From positions 1-25,394 of the IMG/VR virus record IMGVR_UViG_3300030102_002476: 25,394 nt of DNA; one strand, written 5' to 3'. Made by a program: the position numbers and the translations under genes. The number at the start of each line of letters is the position of its first letter. Position 1 is the stretch's first letter. Source of the DNA: a virus. The notes under the pieces were generated by a model, which searched no databases, was not told where the DNA came from, and saw nothing but the letters and a program-made list of their open reading frames with translations. This document shows, one piece after another, positions 3,415-16,177 of the stretch.

Positions 3415-4523
3415 TAAGCGTTCAAGTCTCTTACGCTACCACTTGTGTTAAATCTGTAACAAACTAATTCACCAGCAGTTACAAAAGCAAATTCTTTGCT
3501 TAGTTTTTGTAGTACTGCCAAGTTAGTGTTGTCAACATAGGTTGTTGGTGCTGCTACACGAATTGCCAAGTTTGACATATCTAAGAGGTGAATCCTAGAG
3601 GTTGTGTCTTTAGCAACGTGTTGTGATAGGAAAATTGGTATTCCATCGTATGCACCGACTCGTGAATCAAAATTTAATCCTGCTTCTCCAACTACTCCGT
3701 TTGCATTTGCACCACCAGATGCAGACAAATCTGCTCTGAATGTGTTGTTAGTTGTAGATAGCATTAATGCTTTTAAATCTTGATATGTGTCATATCCAGT
3801 TAACAAAATTAAATCGCTGTAGTTTACACCGTTTTCTAATGCTCCTTGAATAATTGTATCTAACATTGCTAGTGTTAATGCTCTGTCACTTCCACTGTTG
3901 TGTGAAACAGTTGCATCTGCCCAGCTTGCTGCTGAACGGTCAATGTCGTACATGTCAATATCTGCTCTAGCTGACAATGTTGCGTTAGCTGCTGCGTCGC
4001 TCATTGTTACACGGTCTAAAGACTCTAGATTGTTTCCTGCAACAGTTTCAGAACTTGCCAATAACATTTGGTCCATAAAGAAAGTGTGTGCTTCAGCAGC
4101 TTCAGTTCTTAAGAAATTTAAAATTCCTTTGATACCGTCATCTGCTTCAGAAAGCAATTCAGCTCTAGTTGTAACTTCCCAAGGACTTACAACTTCTTTT
4201 AGAGTTGCAGTTACTTCACTGATATCTGGTTTGTCAGTATCAGGGAAAGCTGCTCCTTCTGCTAGACCTGCGGTTGTTGCGTGACGACCTGTCAACACTC
4301 TCCAACCTGATTGGGTCCATGCTTCTTTCTTGAGAAGTTTAAATACTTCTGATTTGGTGTTTAGCTGATTAAATACGGCTGCACCATACATGGTGTTGAA
4401 AGCCCCTGCTGGGTCAGACAATTCAAATGTATCATCTGCTTTCTGAATACCGTATCTTTTAGCTATACCAAGCGTGCCACCGTAGTATGCTTGCACATAC
4501 TCTTCAAAACTCATTCCTGCCAT
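3414..4523 (-). CDS. HK97-fold major capsid protein
   Basis: The 369-residue product has the size and make-up of an HK97-type capsid subunit. A helical N-arm (MSFEEYVQAYYGG) is followed by a long helical and beta body with the E-loop-like segment EVTATLKEVVSPWEVTTRAEL. The spine-helix-like segment GILNFLRTEAAEAHTFFMDQMLL follows, and then the typical C-terminal half: SDLILLTGYDTYQDLKAL, the YDGIPIFLSQHV strand-turn, and LDMSNLAIRVAAPTTYVD. It directly follows the scaffold-like gene (2-nt gap) in the protease-scaffold-capsid order common in tailed viruses. An SD-like GGAGTG precedes the ATG. Capsid is certain by context; membership of a particular capsid family is not claimed. Confidence 0.93.
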   Translation of the reverse strand: MAGMSFEEYVQAYYGGTLGIAKRYGIQKADDTFELSDPAGAFNTMYGAAVFNQLNTKSEVFKLLKKEAWTQSGWRVLTGRHATTAGLAEGAAFPDTDKPDISEVTATLKEVVSPWEVTTRAELLSEADDGIKGILNFLRTEAAEAHTFFMDQMLLASSETVAGNNLESLDRVTMSDAAANATLSARADIDMYDIDRSAASWADATVSHNSGSDRALTLAMLDTIIQGALENGVNYSDLILLTGYDTYQDLKALMLSTTNNTFRADLSASGGANANGVVGEAGLNFDSRVGAYDGIPIFLSQHVAKDTTSRIHLLDMSNLAIRVAAPTTYVDNTNLAVLQKLSKEFAFVTAGELVCYRFNTSGSVRDLNA

Positions 4524-4525
4524 AT

Positions 4526-5143
4526 TTAGTTCACTCCAGCTCTTTCTTCCATGCGTTGCACTTCCTCAATTGATTTAGAAAATTCTGACCAATTGATTGA
4601 TACAGGTTTTTCTCTTACAACTCTGCGTGTTGCAGGTGTTGCTTTGCTACCTGTATATACAGACATACCAGACTTTTCCAAAGTTTTCAATGCTTCTTTG
4701 ACAGACATGGATACTTCTTCTTCATCTTCGCCATAATGTTCTGGCTTAGATATTTCTTCTTTATCTTCGCCATAATGTCCTGGTTTAGATACTTCCATAT
4801 CCATTTCTTTTTCTTCGTCATAGTGCATATTCTTTTCTTCGCCATAATGTCCTGGCTTAGATACTTCTTCCATATCCATGTCTTTTTCTTCGTCTTCTTC
4901 TTCCTCATGCTCTTCTTTTGTAAGATGTGCTAGAGTCTGTTTTAACAAAGATGTTAACTCAGATATGTCTTTTCGGGTATATCCCTTGCCCTCTTCTTCT
5001 AAAAGTTCTTCTTCCTCGACATCCTCTTCTTCAGCTTTTTCTGTATCGTTTACTGGAGGGAGGACTTCTTCGGTTTCGTCTTCCTTGACTACGTAGTCAA
5101 GCTCAAGGGTCTTTTGCTGACCGCAAGTACAGAAATCACTCAT
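4526..5143 (-). CDS. Acidic scaffold-like protein with SKPxHYGE repeats
   Basis: This 205-residue protein is extremely acidic (Glu/Asp-rich over residues 20-145) and sits immediately upstream of the major capsid gene, the usual place of a scaffold. Residues 55-80 form a probable helix. Three copies of SKP-x-HYGE occur at residues 95-102, 119-126 and 132-139, joined by Glu/Lys/Met-rich linkers. The C-terminus (residues 165-205) is basic then amphipathic, suitable for binding the capsid shell. The N-terminus reads MSDFCTC, a Cys-x-Cys pair that resembles MSDCVC near the N-terminus of the prohead protease. A TATA-like box lies 24.5 nt upstream. Scaffold is inferred from place and composition; an acidic internal head protein is the alternative. 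Confidence 0.7.
   Translation of the reverse strand: MSDFCTCGQQKTLELDYVVKEDETEEVLPPVNDTEKAEEEDVEEEELLEEEGKGYTRKDISELTSLLKQTLAHLTKEEHEEEEDEEKDMDMEEVSKPGHYGEEKNMHYDEEKEMDMEVSKPGHYGEDKEEISKPEHYGEDEEEVSMSVKEALKTLEKSGMSVYTGSKATPATRRVVREKPVSINWSEFSKSIEEVQRMEERAGVN
4713..4868 (-). repeat. Tandem SKPxHYGE-coding repeats in scaffold gene
   Basis: Three near-identical units read on the plus strand as cgccataatg followed by a [tc]ctgg[ct]ttagata-like run; they encode the three SKP-x-HYGE motifs and flanking acidic codons. Slippage here could change scaffold length between relatives. Confidence 0.65.
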
Positions 5144-5212: not shown

Positions 5213-5593
5213 TTACCTAGGTTTTGTGTCTTCATCAAGCCACCACTCTAACTCGTCTATGCCTACTTCAATTCCTGTTTTAGCTTCACGACTCAAACAA
5301 ATAATATCAGGCAAATTTCCTGTTCTACGTAATGATGAATGTACTAATCCACTTTGCTCAAAGATTCTTAAAGTCTGTAATATTTTTTTAGCTCCGTAAC
5401 CGTGCTTAATATTAGTCAAACTTTGAGCTAATTTTTTTAATTTAAGGTAATTTCTTTTTGTAATACAATATTTGTAAGTATAGTGTTTAACATAAGAAGT
5501 ACTGTATTGTTTTAATTGCCGTATTTCTTTTCTTGTAGCATTTCTTCTTTTAACAACAGAGTTGGTTGTTCCCTGATGTTGATTAAAACTCAT
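5213..5593 (-). CDS. Type A-tagged winged-helix-like protein
   Basis: I place the start at the ATG giving MSFNQHQGTTN (126 residues), not at an ATG eight codons upstream, because this N-terminus matches those of the genes at 6490 and 7883. Residues 1-16 are the type A tag. Residues 17-60 are very basic and aromatic (tyrosine, lysine). Residues 60-126 resemble a winged helix: a helix KLKKLAQSL, then GYGAKKILQTLRIFEQSGLV as helix-turn-recognition helix, and an RRTGNLPDIICL wing, ending in an acidic tail. This suggests DNA binding. The start overlaps the stop of the preceding gene by 11 nt. If the tag directs packaging, this would be a DNA-binding protein carried in the virion. Confidence 0.7.
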   Translation of the reverse strand: MSFNQHQGTTNSVVKRRNATRKEIRQLKQYSTSYVKHYTYKYCITKRNYLKLKKLAQSLTNIKHGYGAKKILQTLRIFEQSGLVHSSLRRTGNLPDIICLSREAKTGIEVGIDELEWWLDEDTKPR

Positions 5594-6071
5594 ACTTAGG
5601 TTTTTTACAACTATCACACATGCTAACTTTGTTGTAATTTGTTTTTAATACATCAGATACATTCTTAGAACTCCACATCTTACAAGACCAATATCTTGCT
5701 TTATGCTTAGGGCCTGGATTGTCACAGTTGTGTCTTGCTCTAAACTGTCTACGTTTGTCTGGGTCATCACGTTTTATATCCATGTTAGGGTCGCCAAACT
5801 TAACTTGTACAACGTTACCTTTAGGATTCTTAACGTAAACTCCAAACTTCTTTTTTTCTCCTGATAATCTAAAAGGATTGTTTAATTCTACTTTCTTACC
5901 TTGATACTCTGCTTTTACAATACGTTCGTCTTTATGGTCTTCTATTAATATAAATGTTGCATACTCCATAGCTCCATCATGCGGTTCATAATCACCTTCC
6001 ATAAGTGCAGGACCGTCTTTTAACTGCATCCAGTGATAACCTTTTGGTGCTTTAAGTTTTTTAGTTTTCAA
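5583..6071 (-). CDS. Conserved marine-virus protein with C-terminal type B tag
   Basis: This 162-residue protein opens MKTKKLKAPKGYHWMQLKDG. The middle part (residues about 85-135) contains GVYVKNPKGNVVQVKFGDPN, MDIKRDDPDKRRQFRARHNC and PKHKARYWSCKMW. I have seen this set of motifs in many uncultured marine phage proteins of unknown function; the two conserved cysteines (RHNCD and YWSCK) could bind metal. Residues 145-158 read NYNKVSMCDSCKKP, which aligns without gaps to the N-terminal type B tag of its neighbours (NYN-x-AELC-x-x-CK-x-P). So here the tag is at the C-terminus. Function unknown; its place in the tagged cluster suggests a virion-associated role. Confidence 0.8.
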   Translation of the reverse strand: MKTKKLKAPKGYHWMQLKDGPALMEGDYEPHDGAMEYATFILIEDHKDERIVKAEYQGKKVELNNPFRLSGEKKKFGVYVKNPKGNVVQVKFGDPNMDIKRDDPDKRRQFRARHNCDNPGPKHKARYWSCKMWSSKNVSDVLKTNYNKVSMCDSCKKPKYEF

Positions 6072-6490
6072 TTGTTAAACTCTCCACCTTGTTGATAACG
6101 AGGATTGCGCATTGCTTGTTCTGCTAAACGCATTCCTTTTCTTCCTATTGAAGTTAATTTACCTTTGAAATTATATGTAGTAGCCACTTTAGGTTGATTC
6201 CAACTACTTCTAAATGGATTTGGATGTGTGCCATTCATTCCGTCTACTTTGTAATTGCGGTTTCTCCAATCACCATAAGAAACTTTTTTACCGTTTCTAT
6301 CTAACATTTCAACATACCAAGAATCTTGTCCAGACCTTACTTGTACTCCTGTTCTTGGATTTTGCCCATACCTAGAAGAAATAGTCATTGTATCTCCATT
6401 TGGCCTTTTACCAATCCACCAAACGTTTTGCATAGATACACGTTTTGCAATTGGATTGTTAGTAGTTCCTATTTGTTGATTAAAACTCAT
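6068..6490 (-). CDS. Type A-tagged protein, paralogue of the 6719-7069 product
   Basis: The 140-residue product begins with the type A tag MSFNQQIGTTNNPIAKR. The body (residues 22-140) is beta-rich: VWWIGKRPNGDTMTISSRYG, then NPRTG, QDSWYVEML, and near the end FKGKLTSIGRKGMRLAEQAM. The same order of motifs occurs in the neighbour at 6719-7069 (ARWGVNPQRG, QDTYLMHYV, VQGKVTAIGKK), so the two bodies are paralogous although their N-terminal tags differ. Start overlaps the preceding stop as ATGA. The body family is not recognised. It looks like a small adaptor or effector fold. Confidence 0.8.
   Translation of the reverse strand: MSFNQQIGTTNNPIAKRVSMQNVWWIGKRPNGDTMTISSRYGQNPRTGVQVRSGQDSWYVEMLDRNGKKVSYGDWRNRNYKVDGMNGTHPNPFRSSWNQPKVATTYNFKGKLTSIGRKGMRLAEQAMRNPRYQQGGEFNN
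6449..6490 (-). repeat. Type A tag DNA repeat (copy at 6490)
   Basis: The first 42 nt of the gene match 7842-7883 at about 36 of 42 positions; the first 18 nt from the ATG differ at one position. The last 15 nt of the plus-strand form (ttgattaaaactcat) are also identical at the 5593 gene. Confidence 0.75.
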
Positions 6491-6729
6491 GCTCTCTCGT
6501 AATATTTAAATCTGTTAGCAAACCTTCTTTTGACTGTCAATGCTTCGTTTCTACTAAGTTTAAACTCTCTCATTAGCCCACTAACTATGTTTTTCCAAGG
6601 GGTTCGGTCTCGTCTTCGTTCTGTTTCCATCCATTCAAAAAATAACGGCATCATTCTTTCTAACTCTCTTCTATTTTTATTAACAGGCATTTTACAATCT
6701 TTACATAGTTCTGCTTTGTTATAGTTCAT
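6487..6729 (-). CDS. Type B-tagged small basic helical protein
   Basis: The ATG at 6729 is chosen over one two codons upstream because it gives MNYNKAELCKDCKMPVNK, matching the neighbours. Eighty residues. After the tag (1-18) the body is helical and strongly basic: RRELERMMPLFFEWMETERR, then a possible helix-turn-helix (IVSGLMREFKLSRNEALTVK) and RRFANRFKYYERA. DNA or RNA binding is plausible. The start overlaps the previous stop by 11 nt and the stop overlaps the next start as ATGA. No family recognised. Confidence 0.75.
   Translation of the reverse strand: MNYNKAELCKDCKMPVNKNRRELERMMPLFFEWMETERRRDRTPWKNIVSGLMREFKLSRNEALTVKRRFANRFKYYERA
6681..6729 (-). repeat. Type B tag DNA repeat, copy 1
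   Basis: The first 49 nt of the gene. By eye it matches 7021-7069 at 45 of 49 positions and 7362-7410 at 44 of 49. Identity drops abruptly beyond the tag, so only the tag-coding DNA is shared. Confidence 0.85.
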
Positions 6730-7069
6730 TAACATACCCCTTATCTGCTAATTCTAAATATTTCTTTCCAATAGCTGTTACTTTTCCTTGTACTATATTG
6801 TATCTACGTATAAGGGCAGTGTTATTTAGTCTATTATTACGAAGCGTATCTGACCTAAACGTAGTAATATGTTTATACGGATTTACATAATGCATTAAGT
6901 AAGTGTCTTGATTTTTTTTGTAATTTAAACCTCTTTGTGGATTTACTCCCCATCTTGCAACTATGTGTATTTCTCTTCCTTCTTTATCTTTCCCTTTCCA
7001 AAATATTACTGGTGCTTTATTAACAGGCTTTTTGCAAGCTTTACATAGTTCTGCTTCGTTATAGTTCAT
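6719..7069 (-). CDS. Type B-tagged protein, paralogue of the 6068-6490 product
   Basis: This 116-residue protein begins with the type B tag MNYNEAELCKACKKPVNK. The body starts with VIFWKGKDKEGREIHIVARW and shares with the 6068-6490 product the motifs GVNPQRG / GQNPRTG, QDTYLMHYV / QDSWYVEML and VQGKVTAIGKK / FKGKLTSIGRK, spaced alike. It is shorter by a loop. Same body, different tag: this is the clearest evidence in the cluster that tags and bodies are exchangeable modules. ATGA overlap with the preceding gene. Function unknown. Confidence 0.8.
   Translation of the reverse strand: MNYNEAELCKACKKPVNKAPVIFWKGKDKEGREIHIVARWGVNPQRGLNYKKNQDTYLMHYVNPYKHITTFRSDTLRNNRLNNTALIRRYNIVQGKVTAIGKKYLELADKGYVNEL
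7021..7069 (-). repeat. Type B tag DNA repeat, copy 2
   Basis: Second of three tag-coding 49-nt blocks (others 6681-6729 and 7362-7410), about 90 percent identical, located exactly at the start of an otherwise unrelated gene. Confidence 0.85.
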
Positions 7070-7410
7070 ATGTTCAAAACCCTCATATTGTTTAATCTTC
7101 TGAGTTCTGCGCCTTGTCTAAGTAAATCTACCCAACCTGCTCTTGTCATGGCTTGGCTTACTATTTTTCCAGGGTCTTCATCTAAATATCTTTTTCCGTT
7201 TGCAAATAATTCATATACATCTACATGACGTGAAGCTACCCTAGGTATTTCTTTATATTTCATTCTTGACAATAACATGTCTGCTACTTTTCGCCATTGT
7301 CCTACGTATTGTCTACGTTGAGTTTTATAATCAAATTTTGGTTTTGGAACATTAAATTTCTCAACAGGCATTTTGCAATCTTTACACAGTTCTGCTTCGT
7401 TGTAGTTCAT
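7066..7410 (-). CDS. Type B-tagged helical protein
   Basis: The 114-residue product begins MNYNEAELCKDCKMPVEK, the type B tag. The body (residues 20-114) is predicted helical and basic: QRRQYVGQWRKVADMLLSRM, then VYELFANGKRYLDEDPGKIV and SQAMTRAGWVDLLRQGAELR, ending RRLNNMRVLNI. No motif I recognise. The start shares one base with the stop of the upstream gene (TAATG), and the 3' end overlaps the next tagged gene as ATGA, so it is translationally coupled on both sides. Confidence 0.78.
   Translation of the reverse strand: MNYNEAELCKDCKMPVEKFNVPKPKFDYKTQRRQYVGQWRKVADMLLSRMKYKEIPRVASRHVDVYELFANGKRYLDEDPGKIVSQAMTRAGWVDLLRQGAELRRLNNMRVLNI
7362..7410 (-). repeat. Type B tag DNA repeat, copy 3
   Basis: Third 49-nt tag-coding block; see 6681-6729 and 7021-7069. 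Differences are mostly single changes at synonymous positions. Confidence 0.85.
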
Positions 7411-7883
7411 TAGTATTCACTCGGAAATAATATTGTAGTTCTTGAATGGCCTCTTTCTGTAATTATCCAAATCTTACCTTCTACCGTATTGTACACTGCT
7501 AATATACGACTACCTTCTTCTACAGATGCATCATTCAATTTACTATCTTCTCTTCCAGACATACCCCAATCTCCACGTTTGTATTGAGCCATTGCTCTTT
7601 GTACGTCTCTTTTAAATTTATTAGCACGATTTTTTCCTGCTGGCGTGTTGCCCCAATATTCTGGATTCATTTTGTCAGCAACGCCTCTTGTCATTATTAC
7701 TCTACCCAATCTTGGCCATCGTCTTTTTTCTACAGGCTCATCATCTTTTTCTTTCTTAGGAACACAGTTAGGTACTTCTCTACCGTCTTGTATTTTAGTT
7801 CCTACCATTTCGTAGTTTTCCCAACATGGGTCGTCTTTAGTTAACGGATTGTTAGTAACTCCTATGTGTTGATTAAAACTCAT
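7410..7883 (-). CDS. Type A-tagged protein of the RGVADxM...GDWG...IWIITE family
   Basis: The 157-residue product starts with type A tag MSFNQHIGVTNNPLTK, followed by a Lys/Glu-rich linker with two cysteines. From about residue 55 it matches a family I know from bacterial plasmids and phages: a VIMTRGVADKM opening, a helix ending YKRGDWGMSGREDSKLNDAS, then RILAVYN, GKIWIITERGHSRTTILFP and SEY at the very end. Such proteins normally stand alone and start near RGVAD; databases often carry misleading names for them, and their role is unknown. Here the family is fused to the viral tag, as expected for a captured cargo. ATGA overlap with the preceding gene. Confidence 0.82.
   Translation of the reverse strand: MSFNQHIGVTNNPLTKDDPCWENYEMVGTKIQDGREVPNCVPKKEKDDEPVEKRRWPRLGRVIMTRGVADKMNPEYWGNTPAGKNRANKFKRDVQRAMAQYKRGDWGMSGREDSKLNDASVEEGSRILAVYNTVEGKIWIITERGHSRTTILFPSEY
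7842..7883 (-). repeat. Type A tag DNA repeat (copy at 7883)
   Basis: The first 42 nt of the gene, about 36 of 42 identical with 6449-6490. The bodies that follow are unrelated. Confidence 0.75.
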
Positions 7884-8296
7884 CGTCTCCTCTTTGTTTT
7901 TTTGTCTAACATATCTAATTGAACGCCTACATTTAACATAGTGTAGAACGGTGATTTTTGTGCTAAATCATTTATTAATTTAGACATAGCTTTTAATTTT
8001 TCCATGTTTCTATCTTGTTGTTTAGCTATTTTTCTTAACTCATTACGTGTTACTCCATCTAAACCCATAGTTACATTGCCTACTCTTGTAGACAATAATG
8101 TAAGCATACTAGCACTTTCACTTGCTTCACCTGCTGCAATTTTAAATTCTTGGTCTGCAACCGCTAATGCTTTGTCAGCTTTTTCCATTGCTTTGATTGA
8201 GTCTTTGACTAACTTTAATGGATTTTGAAGTAATCCTTTTTCTAGCTCTTCACCCTCGAAAGGATTGTGTATTTTGTTTGTTTGATTGTGGCTCAT
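7880..8296 (-). CDS. Helical protein with divergent type A tag
   Basis: The 138-residue product begins MSHNQTNKIHNPFEGEE, which keeps S-x-NQ and the later NP of the type A tag but is diverged. The rest is almost wholly helical with heptad-like hydrophobic spacing: VKDSIKAMEKADKALAVADQ, then EFKIAAGEASESASMLTLLS, and LRKIAKQQDRNMEKLKAMSK, ending in a basic KKTKRRR. It follows the prohead protease by three nucleotides. A coiled-coil internal head protein or a scaffold-like adaptor is plausible. No family recognised. Confidence 0.75.
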   Translation of the reverse strand: MSHNQTNKIHNPFEGEELEKGLLQNPLKLVKDSIKAMEKADKALAVADQEFKIAAGEASESASMLTLLSTRVGNVTMGLDGVTRNELRKIAKQQDRNMEKLKAMSKLINDLAQKSPFYTMLNVGVQLDMLDKKTKRRR

Positions 8297-8299
8297 TTA

Positions 8300-9286
8300 T
8301 TACCTTCTTGGATTTGCCATTGTATAGGTCGCATCCATTAACCTGTCTAAATCATCTGCTTTTTTTACAATTTTACTTCCTTCAACCATTAACTCTAAAG
8401 TTTCTCGCAAACATTGCTCTACAAACTCTTGTAATTTTTTTGCGTCTGAATCTAATGGTTGTGGATATACTTTGTTAAATCTACTTAATGCTTGTTGATT
8501 GTAATCTCTTAATTTCATTAATCTTGCTGTAAACATACCTTTCAAATCGCTAGCTATTGCTTGAGATACTGAACCATTATCTTGAATAAATCTTGCATAT
8601 CTCATACGCTCTCTTGGGTCTACTGGCCTCTTTTTTACAGTCTTGCAAGACCCACATTTTTTTACTGGCTTATTACATTTTGCACATTTCTTTATATGCG
8701 AAATGTCTTCTAACTTGTTTTCTGACACGTTTTTACCTATGTTTTCTTCTTCTTTTGCCATTGACACAGATTGTACTGTTGCCTCTGGATTGGCTGGAGA
8801 ATCTCCTACCCAGCTAACACTCCATAGTCCTAGCTTATCTATTTTTGTAAAACAAGCTTCGTTAGGTGGACACACTTTGTTTTGATTCAAAGCTTCTCCC
8901 CTAATACTACTTGCTCCACGTGAACCATACTGTTGTATTTCTTTCCAGACTTTATCATGCATGTCTAGTTTATTGTGAATACCTACTTTCAATAATACTT
9001 TACCATCTTTAATCTTGTAAGCTAATGGTTGTCCAATTGGTATTTCATCATGTTTGTATGAGTAAATGCCATGCTTCATGTAAAAATCCATTGCTTCCTT
9101 TATGGTCTCTGTAGGAATCATGTCGCCTTGTTTGTCAACGATAGGAGCAGAAATGTATGTATCCATTACTCTATCATTGTACCAGTTGCGAGAAGTAGAC
9201 CATTCGGTGTTCAAATTCTTGCATACACAATCACTCATCAAATCCGCAGATAAATCATCCTTTAAAACTGTTTGGCTATTGTTCAT
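8300..9286 (-). CDS. XkdF-like prohead serine protease with zinc-type CxxC pair
   Basis: In 328 residues this looks like the XkdF/S78-type prohead protease fused to an extra C-terminal domain. Residues 40-175 carry the fold: MDTYISAPIVDKQGDMIP, the His motif YSYKHDEIPIG (His79), LLKVGIHNKLD, the Ser motif GSRGASSIRGEA (Ser126/127) and LWSVSWVGDSPANP. Residues 201-214 hold CAKCNKPVKKCGSC, a possible zinc knuckle whose first half matches the type B tag (C-x-x-C-x-x-PV-x-K). Residues 220-328 are helical and may bind the shell or scaffold. A second possible start at 9238 would give MSDCVC, resembling the scaffold N-terminus. It should mature the head and could trim tags. Confidence 0.85.
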   Translation of the reverse strand: MNNSQTVLKDDLSADLMSDCVCKNLNTEWSTSRNWYNDRVMDTYISAPIVDKQGDMIPTETIKEAMDFYMKHGIYSYKHDEIPIGQPLAYKIKDGKVLLKVGIHNKLDMHDKVWKEIQQYGSRGASSIRGEALNQNKVCPPNEACFTKIDKLGLWSVSWVGDSPANPEATVQSVSMAKEEENIGKNVSENKLEDISHIKKCAKCNKPVKKCGSCKTVKKRPVDPRERMRYARFIQDNGSVSQAIASDLKGMFTARLMKLRDYNQQALSRFNKVYPQPLDSDAKKLQEFVEQCLRETLELMVEGSKIVKKADDLDRLMDATYTMANPRR

Positions 9287-9312: not shown

Positions 9313-9849
9313 TTATCTTAATCTCCTTACTTCATAAACGTTTTCTAATCTAGCTCTTTTGTAAAGTCTTGATTTAGTAATAGGCACTCCTTCTGGCGGT
9401 GTATTGTTATCCCATACTTTGTTTCCTTTAACAACTAAGTAATGACTAGTAGTTTGTATCAGATACCATTTCTTTCCACGCTGTCCATACGTTGCTTTAG
9501 TCCATTGTCTAAATGTGTTGCAACCGTGAAGACCATCATAATTCATACTGTATCCGTATTTACGTAATGCATCACGCATTTCATGATTGTACATTCCTTT
9601 AATTTCGTTTACTTTACGTTTTGGTTTTCTAACAAATGATGCTGTACGTGAATCAAATCCACCAGTTGATTTGTTTTTGTTAACTACTCTAAGTAAATCT
9701 TTCTCAATAATGTCGTACCTTTTACCAGTAAGAACAGTCAATGCAGTAGGTCCACACCAAGACGTTCCGTTAGGATTCTTATGCGCCCTACCTTTCTTGT
9801 TTCTAACAGGCTTTGGTTTAGCTGTAAAGCTATCTAATGTTGTTTGCAT
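9313..9849 (-). CDS. C39/papain-like cysteine peptidase
   Basis: The 178-residue protein has the order of a papain-like (C39-type) peptidase. Cys32 lies in GTSWCGPTALTVLTG, His136 in TTSHYLVVKGNKV, and an Asp/Asn at 147-148 in VWDNNTP. These form a plausible Cys-His-Asp/Asn triad. The N-terminus MQTTLDSF fits the PCNA-binding (PIP) pattern Q-x-x-L-x-x-F. A good SD (GGAGG) lies four bases before the ATG. It sits just before the prohead protease, so it may be a second virion-maturation or lysis peptidase, or a delivered effector. Catalysis is inferred from motifs only. Confidence 0.75.
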   Translation of the reverse strand: MQTTLDSFTAKPKPVRNKKGRAHKNPNGTSWCGPTALTVLTGKRYDIIEKDLLRVVNKNKSTGGFDSRTASFVRKPKRKVNEIKGMYNHEMRDALRKYGYSMNYDGLHGCNTFRQWTKATYGQRGKKWYLIQTTSHYLVVKGNKVWDNNTPPEGVPITKSRLYKRARLENVYEVRRLR

Positions 9850-11787: not shown

Positions 11788-13269
11788 TTACGGTTTTACG
11801 GATGGCGGTTCTGAGGGCTGAAATGTATCTGTCAATTCTTGCTGCCCCTCGTCCTCCTGAAACTCGTCTTGTTCTGCCCTTTCTCGTTCTAACTCCTCCT
11901 TAATTCCATCATCAGGTAATATCAATTCTGCATTTTCATCCATGTCAATGTCAATGCCAAGTTCTTGGAAACCACGTATTATCTCTAGCTTTTGTGTTAA
12001 ATTAGCTAGTTCCATTTGCTCGTTGTCTTCATTAATAGGGGTAAACTTAACTTCCCAATCAGTTACATTCATTAATTTTAATAGTGGTTTGAAAAATCCT
12101 TCTTCTATTACAGCTTGTGTTTCCATGATAGTTCTGTCCATCATAGTTATTTGTTCACCTTCTGCATTTAATCCACCAATACCAGCAGTGTCACCCATAG
12201 CTAATGGCATAACTCCGTATGAAGAATTAATGTCATTATTGATTTTTTCTATGTATGGAAGCATTCCTGTCTCTGTTTGGTCTGGCATAACAGTAACAAA
12301 ATTAGCTCCAGACTTACCTTCTCCAGAAGATATGATAGGAATAAAGTTAGGATTGCGTGCTGTTTCCTCAGCAATATATTCTCCTAATCTTGTTAATGAA
12401 TCTTCATTGTGGCCTGGAATATCTAAGAATCCTTTTGGTGGTCGCTCTAGTAAATAGACTTTATTTTGATATGCTTCTACTGCCAATGCAGTTTCTATTT
12501 TCTTTGCCAAAGCTAGAATTGGTGGATTACCATACAATCTAGCATAAGAAGAATACTTGTTAAAGTGTATAACTTCATCTCTTGCAAAATAAATATCACC
12601 TTCACTATCTTTGAAAGTATATGCAATTAGAGCTGTCTCAGCGTCGTTACACCTAGAGTTATCGCAATGTTTTGACGTTCCAGTGCCGTTTCTACATAAA
12701 GGACAGAACCTATCAACATCTTGAAATCTACCAAATCGGTCTGTATTATAACGCATATTTTTAGTATCTTCAATCCAAAGTTCTTTTACTCTCTTACCTA
12801 CAACCTTTCCACTTTCACTTACTACTCTTTCATACAATATAGAAACCCAAACATCATCAAATATTTCTAATTGTCTTACCATTGCTTTAATAATTTCAGA
12901 GCCATTTATGTCTGCTGAACCTCTCGATGGGTCTGTTAATAGGGCAATTATAGCATTCTTTTGGTCTTCAGACTTCTTATCATCATCATCTACAGGTTGC
13001 ACTTCCCAACCTTTTGCAACTACTTGAGCTGCTATTTTTTGTATTACAGTGCGGAGATGGGAATAATTATCAGCAAGATATTCAATATAATGTTGGTCAA
13101 ATGGAGGTTCAATTAGCTGATTGCCTTGCTGATATGACGACGCAGCAGCCGCATCATAGACTGGTGTACGGGCCTCTTTGAGCAGCGTATCTGTGTTACT
13201 ATCAAGATATTTCTGCAATCCTGACTTAGTTTTTTTTGGTCTGTTAAAAAATCTATCCAATATTCCCAT
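11788..13269 (-). CDS. Portal protein with zinc-knuckle insertion
   Basis: The start at 13269 (MGILDRFF, 493 residues) overlaps the terminase stop as TGATG; an upstream ATG inside the terminase gene is unlikely. The order of the protein is portal-like: an N-terminal RPKKTKSG-type lead, a helical clip region, the stem-like VEAYQNKVYLLERPPKGFLD, then SSYGVMPLAMG and GGLNAEGEQITMMDRTI as in SPP1/HK97-type portals, and an acidic C-terminus. Residues 189-207 hold CPLC, Cys202 and Cys207, a zinc knuckle rare in phage portals. It forms the ring at one capsid vertex through which DNA is packed; it follows TerL and precedes MuF as usual. Confidence 0.9.
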   Translation of the reverse strand: MGILDRFFNRPKKTKSGLQKYLDSNTDTLLKEARTPVYDAAAASSYQQGNQLIEPPFDQHYIEYLADNYSHLRTVIQKIAAQVVAKGWEVQPVDDDDKKSEDQKNAIIALLTDPSRGSADINGSEIIKAMVRQLEIFDDVWVSILYERVVSESGKVVGKRVKELWIEDTKNMRYNTDRFGRFQDVDRFCPLCRNGTGTSKHCDNSRCNDAETALIAYTFKDSEGDIYFARDEVIHFNKYSSYARLYGNPPILALAKKIETALAVEAYQNKVYLLERPPKGFLDIPGHNEDSLTRLGEYIAEETARNPNFIPIISSGEGKSGANFVTVMPDQTETGMLPYIEKINNDINSSYGVMPLAMGDTAGIGGLNAEGEQITMMDRTIMETQAVIEEGFFKPLLKLMNVTDWEVKFTPINEDNEQMELANLTQKLEIIRGFQELGIDIDMDENAELILPDDGIKEELERERAEQDEFQEDEGQQELTDTFQPSEPPSVKP

Positions 13270-14741
13270 CACAACCAAGTCCAGTTGGTCATATTTAACT
13301 TTTTGCGTTCTCTTTCTTCTATCGCTAATTCGCACATCCAAAGGGAGATTACTGTATCTGCAACGTGTCCTTCTAGTTTTCCTTTGCCATCCCACATTAA
13401 TTGAGTCAATCCTTTTACTAAGTCACGAGTTCCTGGCCTAGTATTATCTTTTGCAGTGTCACTAAATGGTATTTCGTATAATCCTTTTTCCATTGCTACA
13501 GCAATCCCAGGAATGCCAATCTGTGCGTGGTTACGTTCATTTCCTGTATGATGTGTAGCTATTGGTAACTTCTCAACATCTCTAGCAGCATGTGCAACAA
13601 GTCTTTGAAATCCATTACTTTCTATCATTATCTTTTCAGGATTGTAGATGCTGGCTATTTTTGATATGTTACTAATCTGTTCGTTTAACCAGCTTGCACC
13701 TTCTCCTTGTATCTTACCACTCCACTGATGTAATACTTTACGCTGCTGAGTTTTAGGATTATAGGCCAAAACACAGTATGCAGTTTCGTCATGTTGTGTG
13801 TCAAAACCTACTGCTAAGTCCACTCCCATGACCGTAACCCACCCTTTTATTGGTCCAGAAAACATTTCAAGACCGTTATTTAGGCATGGTTCGATAACAC
13901 TCCAAGGTATAACTGCACTGTCTGGGTCAATAGGATTTAACATATATTCAGACTCAAACGCCCTTGTTCCCATTGCTAATCTTTCTTCTTCTAATCTATC
14001 TATTGTCCAGTATTCTGGCCAACGTGGAGTTCCATCTTTTTTAAGTGCAGGATTCCAAATACAATTCCAATATGGATTTTCTTTAACGTATGCAGTAATG
14101 TCATCTGGTCTTTTTTGTGTACCTATTAACATAATACGAGCTTTAGGTAAACGCATTGGTAGAACAACACGATTCATAAAGTTGATTATTTTATCATCTT
14201 TTATTCTAGGAAATTCTTCTAGAACGTCATCTAAAATTATAAGGTGAACGTGCGGCCCTTCCATTGCACCAGCCATAACTGCACCTCTTACTCTTGAACC
14301 GTTAGCAAAGCCTTTCTGTGTCATGTTCCATCTAACATCGTTTTTCAATACATTTTCTTTTGATGGAATCAAAGGAGCTACACGCCAGCTTCTTCTACAC
14401 AATTCTTCGAATTGAGTCAACTTATCTACTACCTGAGTAAATGTATTTCCAATGTATAAAGCCCTAAAATTAGGGTTACTATACATCTGCCATAGCAAAT
14501 AAGTCAGGCTAAATGATGTTTTTAAGTGTCCACGAGCGCATATTATTGCTACTCTTTCGTTTTCTGCAATCGTATCATGCCAGTTTTTATGCATGTCAGC
14601 AAGCGGATGAAACTCATCTGGCTCATGTGACATATACTCCATCATGGCTTCATTAGCAAACTCTAAGAATGGAATCTTACCAGGATTTAGATGTTTAGCA
14701 AAAGAAGTAATGAAACTTTTGTGGTCTGTTGCATCAGTCAT
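13269..14741 (-). CDS. terL: Terminase large subunit (packaging ATPase and nuclease)
   Basis: From the ATG at 14741 (MTDATDHKSF) there are 490 residues; a longer frame from 14783 lies inside the TerS gene. The N-terminal ATPase has a Walker A variant ARGHLKTS (69-76), Walker B LIILDD (167-172) followed by VLEE, and the coupling motif LIGTQKR (205-211). The C-terminal RNase H-like nuclease has Asp308 (MGVDLAVG), Glu374 (IMIESNGF) and Asp462 (GHVADTV). It motors DNA into the procapsid and cuts the concatemer. Complete and apparently intact. Overlaps TerS by eight bases. Confidence 0.95.
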   Translation of the reverse strand: MTDATDHKSFITSFAKHLNPGKIPFLEFANEAMMEYMSHEPDEFHPLADMHKNWHDTIAENERVAIICARGHLKTSFSLTYLLWQMYSNPNFRALYIGNTFTQVVDKLTQFEELCRRSWRVAPLIPSKENVLKNDVRWNMTQKGFANGSRVRGAVMAGAMEGPHVHLIILDDVLEEFPRIKDDKIINFMNRVVLPMRLPKARIMLIGTQKRPDDITAYVKENPYWNCIWNPALKKDGTPRWPEYWTIDRLEEERLAMGTRAFESEYMLNPIDPDSAVIPWSVIEPCLNNGLEMFSGPIKGWVTVMGVDLAVGFDTQHDETAYCVLAYNPKTQQRKVLHQWSGKIQGEGASWLNEQISNISKIASIYNPEKIMIESNGFQRLVAHAARDVEKLPIATHHTGNERNHAQIGIPGIAVAMEKGLYEIPFSDTAKDNTRPGTRDLVKGLTQLMWDGKGKLEGHVADTVISLWMCELAIEERERKKLNMTNWTWL

Positions 14742-15720: not shown

Positions 15721-15909
15721 TTACATACGACGGAGATAACCTATAAGGTCATTAACATCCATCCTAGCTGCATCATAATGTTTAAGTTTTAGTGAATTTT
15801 GAATTGCTTTAAGTCTTGCAATAGCAAAATTTCTTACACGTTCACGAGCTGAATTTTTATCTAAAGGTCCTTTACTTAATTCATCTGCATCTAAACTTGA
15901 GTAACCCAT
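15721..15909 (-). CDS. Small helical protein (62 aa), unknown
   Basis: The ATG lies one base after the stop of the previous gene, with a GGTAGA-like SD. The product is mostly helix: LSKGPLDKNSARERVRNFAI, then ARLKAIQNSLKLKHYDAARM and DVNDLIGYLRRM. The end looks like a helix of a tetratricopeptide-like or coiled protein. No family recognised. It is followed by a promoter, so it closes a transcription unit. Confidence 0.65.
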   Translation of the reverse strand: MGYSSLDADELSKGPLDKNSARERVRNFAIARLKAIQNSLKLKHYDAARMDVNDLIGYLRRM

Positions 15910-15910
15910 C

Positions 15911-16177
15911 TTATCTACCTTGTTGAATAGCTCTTCTTTTAATGTTAGATAATTGTGTGTGTATTGTTTTTAGAGCCAACCATACTTTGTTAGCAGTGTC
16001 AATATCGCTTTTTGAACCACCATATCTTTTTAGGTTTTGAATATATTCTCTAACTCCTAATTGTTCTTTAGCGTTAGCATCTAATGCTACTTCCAATTGT
16101 TTAACACTCATTGCATAAGGATTCTTTTGTTTAAACAATTCTTCTCTTTCACTTTTCTCTAATGTGACAAAGCCCAT
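15911..16177 (-). CDS. Small helical protein (88 aa), unknown
   Basis: The ATG is 26.5 nt from the centre of a TATAAATA box and has no clear SD, so a leaderless mRNA is predicted and the start is well supported. The protein is helical and charged: FVTLEKSEREELFKQKNPYA, MSVKQLEVALDANAKEQLGV, a GGSKSDIDTANKVWLALK middle and basic end NIKRRAIQQGR. No family recognised. Lies directly after the inverted-repeat region, so it could be regulated by whatever binds there. Confidence 0.65.
   Translation of the reverse strand: MGFVTLEKSEREELFKQKNPYAMSVKQLEVALDANAKEQLGVREYIQNLKRYGGSKSDIDTANKVWLALKTIHTQLSNIKRRAIQQGR

Follow-up and report, generated by a model that had tools for sequence, protein, structure and literature searches.

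A cysteine motif common to the prohead protease and small head-cluster proteins as a candidate targeting tag in probable archaeal head-tail viruses

The diverse internal proteins of phage T4 have only the capsid targeting sequence (CTS) in common (PMC3012670). The T4 maturation protease gp21 cuts after L/I-X-E and its own propeptides have been suggested to act like the CTS, while the targeting and autocleavage of this protease have been called a major gap (PMC9026906). Head-packaged proteins are also found in phage P1, where DarB has an N-terminal targeting signal of at most 30 residues and the Dar proteins have no common N-terminal consensus (PMC9024508). Among the head ejection proteins of SPN3US and phiKZ, the diverged paralogs gp53 and gp54 have an identical 15-residue start with protease sites; propeptides in this system are often longer than 100 residues, no Cys tag has been described and the protease cuts after a glutamyl residue (PMC5694885). 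The polyvalent proteins of phages and plasmids are multidomain polypeptides delivered with the genome (PMC5512222). Virion-packaged proteins with a shared address were found in the literature, in which subscription journals were thinly covered, only for T4, P1 and the giant phages, and none were found for archaeal head-tail viruses.

The locus described here resembles that of T4 in several respects. Short conserved N-terminal tags are followed by highly diverse small proteins, as with the CTS and IPI-III and Alt, the tag ends in a hydrophobic-x-charged motif (L/I-X-E in T4, [VIL]-x-K here), the genes are located in the head cluster and the protease itself carries the tag, as suggested for the CTS-like propeptide of gp21 (PMC9026906, PMC3012670). 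It differs from T4 in belonging to a probable archaeal virus known from sequences alone, in having several tag types at once, one of them built round CxxC, in the additional C-terminal position of the tag and its tandem occurrence in the protease, and in the exchange of cargo with the protease tail. Unlike the starts of the Dar proteins, the tags are clearly shared. The protease-plus-modules ORFs of tagless relatives are similar to polyvalent proteins, but a serine prohead protease heads the chain, and in the clade with the tagged protease tail (the tail clade) the chain is divided among tagged genes. It is fairly probable that the motif is a prohead-targeting tag common to the maturation protease and variable small basic cargo, similar to the T4 CTS. 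The sequences provide a natural experiment, with the same domains fused to the protease without tags or free with tags; if the proposal is true, the tags list candidate delivered proteins of uncultured marine viruses and represent a transferable short packaging signal with a testable cleavage rule.

The window analysed, 25,394 bases long, is an entire IMG/VR record. A series of head genes on its minus strand codes for the small and large terminases, a portal, a MuF-like protein, a neck protein, a C39-like peptidase and the prohead protease, followed by eight small genes, an acidic scaffold and the capsid protein (Table 1). The capsid protein shares ~32% identity with those of the haloarchaeal viruses HVTV-1/HCTV and 26% with that of a Methanofastidiosa virus, the sole matches among 50,697 phage records, and this likeness to archaeal viruses suggests that an archaeal host is likely. 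No relatives by terminase and capsid were found in the 84,980 prokaryote genomes scanned. The source group is one of uncultured marine viruses, probably archaeal head-tail viruses. The interval between the protease and capsid genes holds 6-9 genes (2.2-3.8 kb) in the tail clade, and in other relatives mostly the scaffold alone (~0.5-0.6 kb) or just 2-3 bases, the scaffold being fused to the protease in the latter. The C39-like peptidase (9313-9849) starts with MQTTLDSFTAKPKPVRNKKG, resembling a PCNA-interacting (PIP) box, and similar starts occur in relatives L082, L087 and L096. A Cys insert, FCPLCRNGTGTSKHCDNSRC, is present in the portal (11788-13395), and a two-CxxC version of it occurs in some tagless relatives with a fused protease-scaffold and is rare in the remainder; its presence in tagless relatives rules it out as a tag-specific feature.

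The phrog_80 head maturation protease profile was matched by 11 of 33 aligned members (best 5e-4), the window protein itself not among them, while Pfam S78 matched weakly, at 0.06 in 3 members. His79 (H79) and S126-S127 are invariant among the aligned relatives, H79 and the serine of GASSIRGE align with HVTV-1 gp119, annotated as a prohead protease, and the gene is located upstream of the scaffold and capsid genes. In the AF2 model of the whole protein (mean pLDDT 68, moderate only), the predicted beta-rich protease domain (pLDDT mostly ~70-80) is joined by a low-confidence linker (residues 178-220), in which the tag sits, to a helical hairpin with helices at residues 224-273 and 280-324 (pLDDT ~73-91), the tail being mostly below pLDDT 50. 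A Foldseek search of the PDB with this model gave no match with E below 0.001, and the matches were dominated by the hairpin. In two relatives (L001 633-1724 and L002 6786-7877), the tandem tag is preceded in the linker by an insert of ~34 residues that includes DAPEDADVKRGKRGGYYYYE.

Residues 201-214 of the protease (8645-8686, minus strand) read CAKCNKPVKKCGSC, and their match to the type B tag pattern, claimed in the preliminary description of this DNA, was verified. Among the 37 coding-strand ORFs of the window, C-x-x-C-x-x-P[VI]-x-K has four matches, in three type B tags and the protease, against 0.001 on average in 5000 residue shuffles; the non-tag relatives (383,238 aa) contain one matching protein. 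The single CxxC ascribed to the protease segment turned out to be two in tandem, with four cysteines in a CxxC-x6-CxxC arrangement, and the argument that one CxxC cannot hold zinc alone thus fits only the single-unit tags of the small genes. The tandem is clear in relatives, as in CGSCSKPVKK-CGSCNKPVGK, with CGSCSKPVKKCGSCNKPVGK and CGECKKPIAKCDKCNKPVEK as further readings of the tail. The four cysteines fall within 14 residues and are invariant in all ten tail-bearing lineages, so that every tail has the CxxC-loop-CxxC form of a compact Cys4 knuckle. No Pfam zinc family was matched by the window protease, and zinc_ribbon_16 was matched at 0.05 in one member. The invariant cysteines would be in keeping with a self-contained zinc knuckle that stabilises the linker or binds DNA, the likeness to tag B being convergence, as would the similar 14-mers CSRCLKPVNKCGNC and CGLCQKPIDKCGCC, carried by unrelated small proteins on two other viral contigs (L172 4724-5086 and L173 695-868). 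This is quite unlikely, however, as it leaves unexplained the strict co-occurrence with B tags, the common PVxK junction and the exchange of cargo exactly behind the motif described below. Some other protease tails have one CxxC (CVQCGGDVEKK, L055-L069) in a different context, and no tagged genes were found there.

Table 1. Features of the protease-to-capsid region and the second tagged locus in the window
Feature	Coordinates	Strand	Evidence or remarks
Capsid protein N-arm GIAKRYGIQK, two conserved I-x-K sites	4440..4469	-	71 homologs
Acidic scaffold, pI 4.4, N-terminus MSDFCTC	4526..5143	-	CxC in 57/57 homologs
Type A tagged gene, MSFNQHQGTTNSVVK	5213..5593	-	
Free-standing PKGYHW..KARYWSCKMW module	5583..6071	-	C-terminal Cys tag MCDSCKKPKYEF (5586-5621)
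Type A tagged gene, MSFNQQIGTTNNPIAK	6068..6490	-	
Type B tagged gene, tag MNYNKAELCKDCKMPVNK	6487..6729	-	tag at 6676-6729
Type B tagged gene, tag MNYNEAELCKACKKPVNK	6719..7069	-	tag at 7016-7069; cargo homologous to that of A-tagged 6068-6490
Type B tagged gene, tag MNYNEAELCKDCKMPVEK	7066..7410	-	tag at 7357-7410
Type A tagged gene, MSFNQHIGVTNNPLTK	7410..7883	-	PCWENYEMVG..VPNCVP module, in relatives fused behind protease
Type C tagged gene, MSHNQTNKIHNPFEGEELEKG	7880..8296	-	
Prohead (head maturation) serine protease with tandem tag and C-terminal cargo domain, 328 aa	8300..9286	-	phrog_80, HVTV-1 gp119 alignment, gene order
Exchangeable cargo domain of protease (YARFIQDNGSVSQAIASDL...), predicted two-helix hairpin	8303..8629	-	AF2; same domain behind tag C elsewhere
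Tag unit 2, residues 211-219, CGSCKTVKK	8630..8656	-	relatives CGSCNKPVGK, CGTCNKPVSK; cargo switches abruptly right behind unit
Tag unit 1, residues 201-210, CAKCNKPVKK	8657..8686	-	both Cys invariant in 10/10 lineages
Protease domain, residues 26-178, end = conserved (V)xMAK	8753..9211	-	conserved in ~90 relatives; beta-rich in AF2
Type D tagged gene, MGYSSLDADELSK	15721..15909	-	second locus, upstream of terminase genes; same cargo behind tag A in L006, L096
Type E tagged gene, MGFVTLEKSEREELFK	15911..16177	-	second locus

Five tag families are distinguished: tag A (MSFNQHIGxTNNPLxK), tag B (MNYNxAELCKDCKMPVxK), tag C (...FEGEELEKG), tag D (MGYSSLDxxELxK) and tag E (MGFVTLEKSEREELFK). As with the T4-type CTS, a short conserved tag is followed by non-homologous cargo. 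All of the families and both protease units end, with few exceptions, in [VIL]-x-K, the middle residue of which varies, and the PVxK half of tag B thus has the look of a general junction between tag and cargo. The other half, CxxC-x-[KM]-P, is limited to tag B, the C-terminal tag and the protease, while tags A, C, D and E contain no cysteine. CxxC is the sole part common to the N-terminal, C-terminal and internal tags, with exactly one copy per chain in the type B cargo tags and two in the protease. Its cysteines are invariant in all 25 B tags, and a minimal B tag with a TGA/ATG overlap start (MKLCKDC..PVxK) has lost MNYNxAE and kept the Cys core.

Co-occurrence of the protease CxxC segment with type B tags across genomes had been set beforehand as a test, and it was observed throughout. 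Among 90 distinct protease homologs in IMG/VR, B-tagged genes accompany the tandem tail in 10/10 lineages, whereas neither B nor A tags are found with any of the 80 tailless homologs. Nine of the tail lineages were scored directly, while the tenth (L082) has just 242 bases downstream, which hold a B-tag start; 24 of the tailless homologs have at least 3 kb downstream. Scans of IMG/VR gave 15 stretches with the tandem pattern among all 2.9 million contigs, 12 in the tail clade and three elsewhere, and 12 with the B-tag pattern, all in the tail clade. Outside the clade, most of the tag A matches (L091-L093, L097-L104, L107) seem to be unrelated or chance hits. The tail-bearing proteases form one clade (support 100/100), which rules out independent origins of the tail in the ten lineages. 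A single event is thus indicated, and the co-occurrence alone may reflect shared ancestry and is no proof of a functional link.

Within the tail clade, at least five unrelated domains are found behind the protease tandem tag, namely YARFIQ..SQAIASDL (window and L001-L003, related in L082), ESLRNDRTLRRMLERL (L005, L008, L087), RDPELYKMFRQLETL (L004, related in L084), MNNGQIxNRMxRLL (L007) and MFQGLGVLSRMT (L009). Four of these are also found as the cargo of independent genes, in L005-L007 with tag C, in L003 with tag B, in L094 with tag D and in L003, L006, L095 and L096 again with tag D. The domain of the window protease recurs behind tag C in L005-L007, and PVSK-KRDPELYKMF follows the protease in L004 and tag B in L003. 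To judge from these placements, cargo is exchanged among the protease and tags of several types, the cysteine-free ones included. Swapping is common and takes place at the ends of tags, and tag A is nearly identical at the DNA level, as are the first codons of tag B, which is what would be expected if the conserved starts and linkers were recombination footholds for cargo swaps with no address function. Tag B and the protease tail, however, retain the same residues, with Cys, P and K invariant, despite different codons, the B tags within one genome differ by 62 synonymous versus 39 non-synonymous codon differences, and the motif also occurs at a C-terminus and inside a chain, positions to which conservation of gene starts is irrelevant; a role in shuffling only is therefore unlikely. 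The C-terminal and internal copies likewise rule out a mere translation effect at gene starts for tag B, and recent copying of DNA between the B tags and the protease was not seen, the codons being different.

Many of the tagless relatives have a single long chain, with an ORF of up to 768 aa, in which the protease domain is followed by cargo modules. The PKGYHWMQ...RARHNCDNPGPKHKARYWSCKMW module stands as a gene of its own in the tail clade (window 5583-6071), whereas relatives have it within the protease chain, the two forms being 71-81% identical. The MC[DN]SCKKPK end of this module is found in 5/5 free copies and 0/36 fused copies, the clearest sign that the Cys tag may stand in for the covalent linkage. 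Several modules are fused behind the protease in L115 (7145-9439) and similar chains, most without a named family and one with a weak DUF5824 match.

The targeting-tag explanation would accommodate both arrangements. In the tagless relatives, cargo would enter the prohead by fusion to the protease. In the tail clade this fusion would have been broken up, on the presumption that the change ran from fused to free, and the tag would do the work instead, bringing both cargo and protease into the prohead. CxxC-x-K/M-P would be the docking half, placed at the N-terminus of the B genes, at the C-terminus of 5583-6071 and in tandem in the protease linker, and [P/x]-[VIL]-x-K the tag/cargo junction of all types, where the protease probably cuts and frees the cargo. 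The protease itself would retain a tandem tag together with a single cargo domain open to exchange. The preliminary description had proposed a route shared by protease and cargo, and the shared tag, the co-occurrence and the domain exchange fit this proposal. Its further suggestion, that the tags dock on the scaffold through the CxC of the correctly quoted MSDFCTC terminus, was not supported: this CxC is present in all 57 scaffold homologs whatever their tags, including all of the tagless ones, and scaffold docking is therefore not favoured and the CxC is ruled out as a tag-specific partner.

A more specific version of the targeting-tag explanation, compatible with it, is docking through zinc half-sites, in which a single-CxxC tag completes a Cys4 site with another tag or with a CxxC unit of the protease and zinc replaces the peptide bond between cargo and protease in the relatives. 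The Rad50 zinc hook has a single CxxC half-site, as do the cargo tags. The protease tail differs in having two CxxC in 10/10 lineages rather than the one per chain of the Rad50 type, and the analogy is therefore closer for cargo tags with a single CxxC than for the protease. No coiled-coil apex is seen at the tag. Zinc arrangements compatible with the sequences may lie inside the protease tail, between single-CxxC tags or between tags and the protease tail. The presence of one CxxC in the cargo tags and two in the protease, the restriction of the part common to N-terminal, C-terminal and internal tags to CxxC and the absence of the Cys tag where the module is covalently fused are all consistent with half-site docking. 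The four protease cysteines could, however, bind zinc in cis without a partner, and tags A, C, D and E carry exchangeable cargo while being cysteine-free, so that Cys is not needed for all cargo. Half-site docking is put forward only tentatively.

The [VIL]-x-K motif may be the cleavage site of the protease, by analogy with the cutting of T4 gp21 after L/I-X-E. It is found at the cargo-homology boundary in 40 of 52 listed cases, which are non-independent, compared with 28% of random cargo positions. Eight of the 12 misses are segments at residue 50 or beyond inside the cargo, two are alignments starting at residue 1 and the last two are alignments starting inside tag A, before its own SVEK. 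Enrichment of [VIL]-x-K was not seen in the scaffold, although a T4-like protease would be expected to cut there repeatedly, and this speaks against a simple copy of the T4 system. In the capsid N-arm, 88% of Lys residues across the 71 homologs have V/I/L at position -2, with a conserved GIxKRYGIxK. It is doubtful, though conceivable, that in an archaeal virus zinc-shared CxxC docking on a tandem-CxxC protease replaced a protease-cargo polyprotein and that cutting at [VIL]-x-K then gave a plug-in system of virion delivery.

The tagged proteins are basic, with a pI above 8.5 in 96%. The computed values would also suit packaging by charge, in which the acidic scaffold (pI 4.4) retains the basic cargo (pI 9-10.7) and no tag is needed. 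This is very unlikely, given that the tags are conserved while the cargo is not, and that 67% of untagged small ORFs are also above pI 8.5, so that charge alone would not select the cargo. Pfam and PHROG searches gave no usable match for most of the cargo, and AF2 modelled the free-standing KARYWSCKMW module at pLDDT 44. A role of the cargo in countering host defences, as for IPI in T4, would be only an analogy. The second locus (15721-16177) carries the MG[YF]xxL tags D and E, and its cargo exchanges with the protease tail and the tag A genes of relatives.
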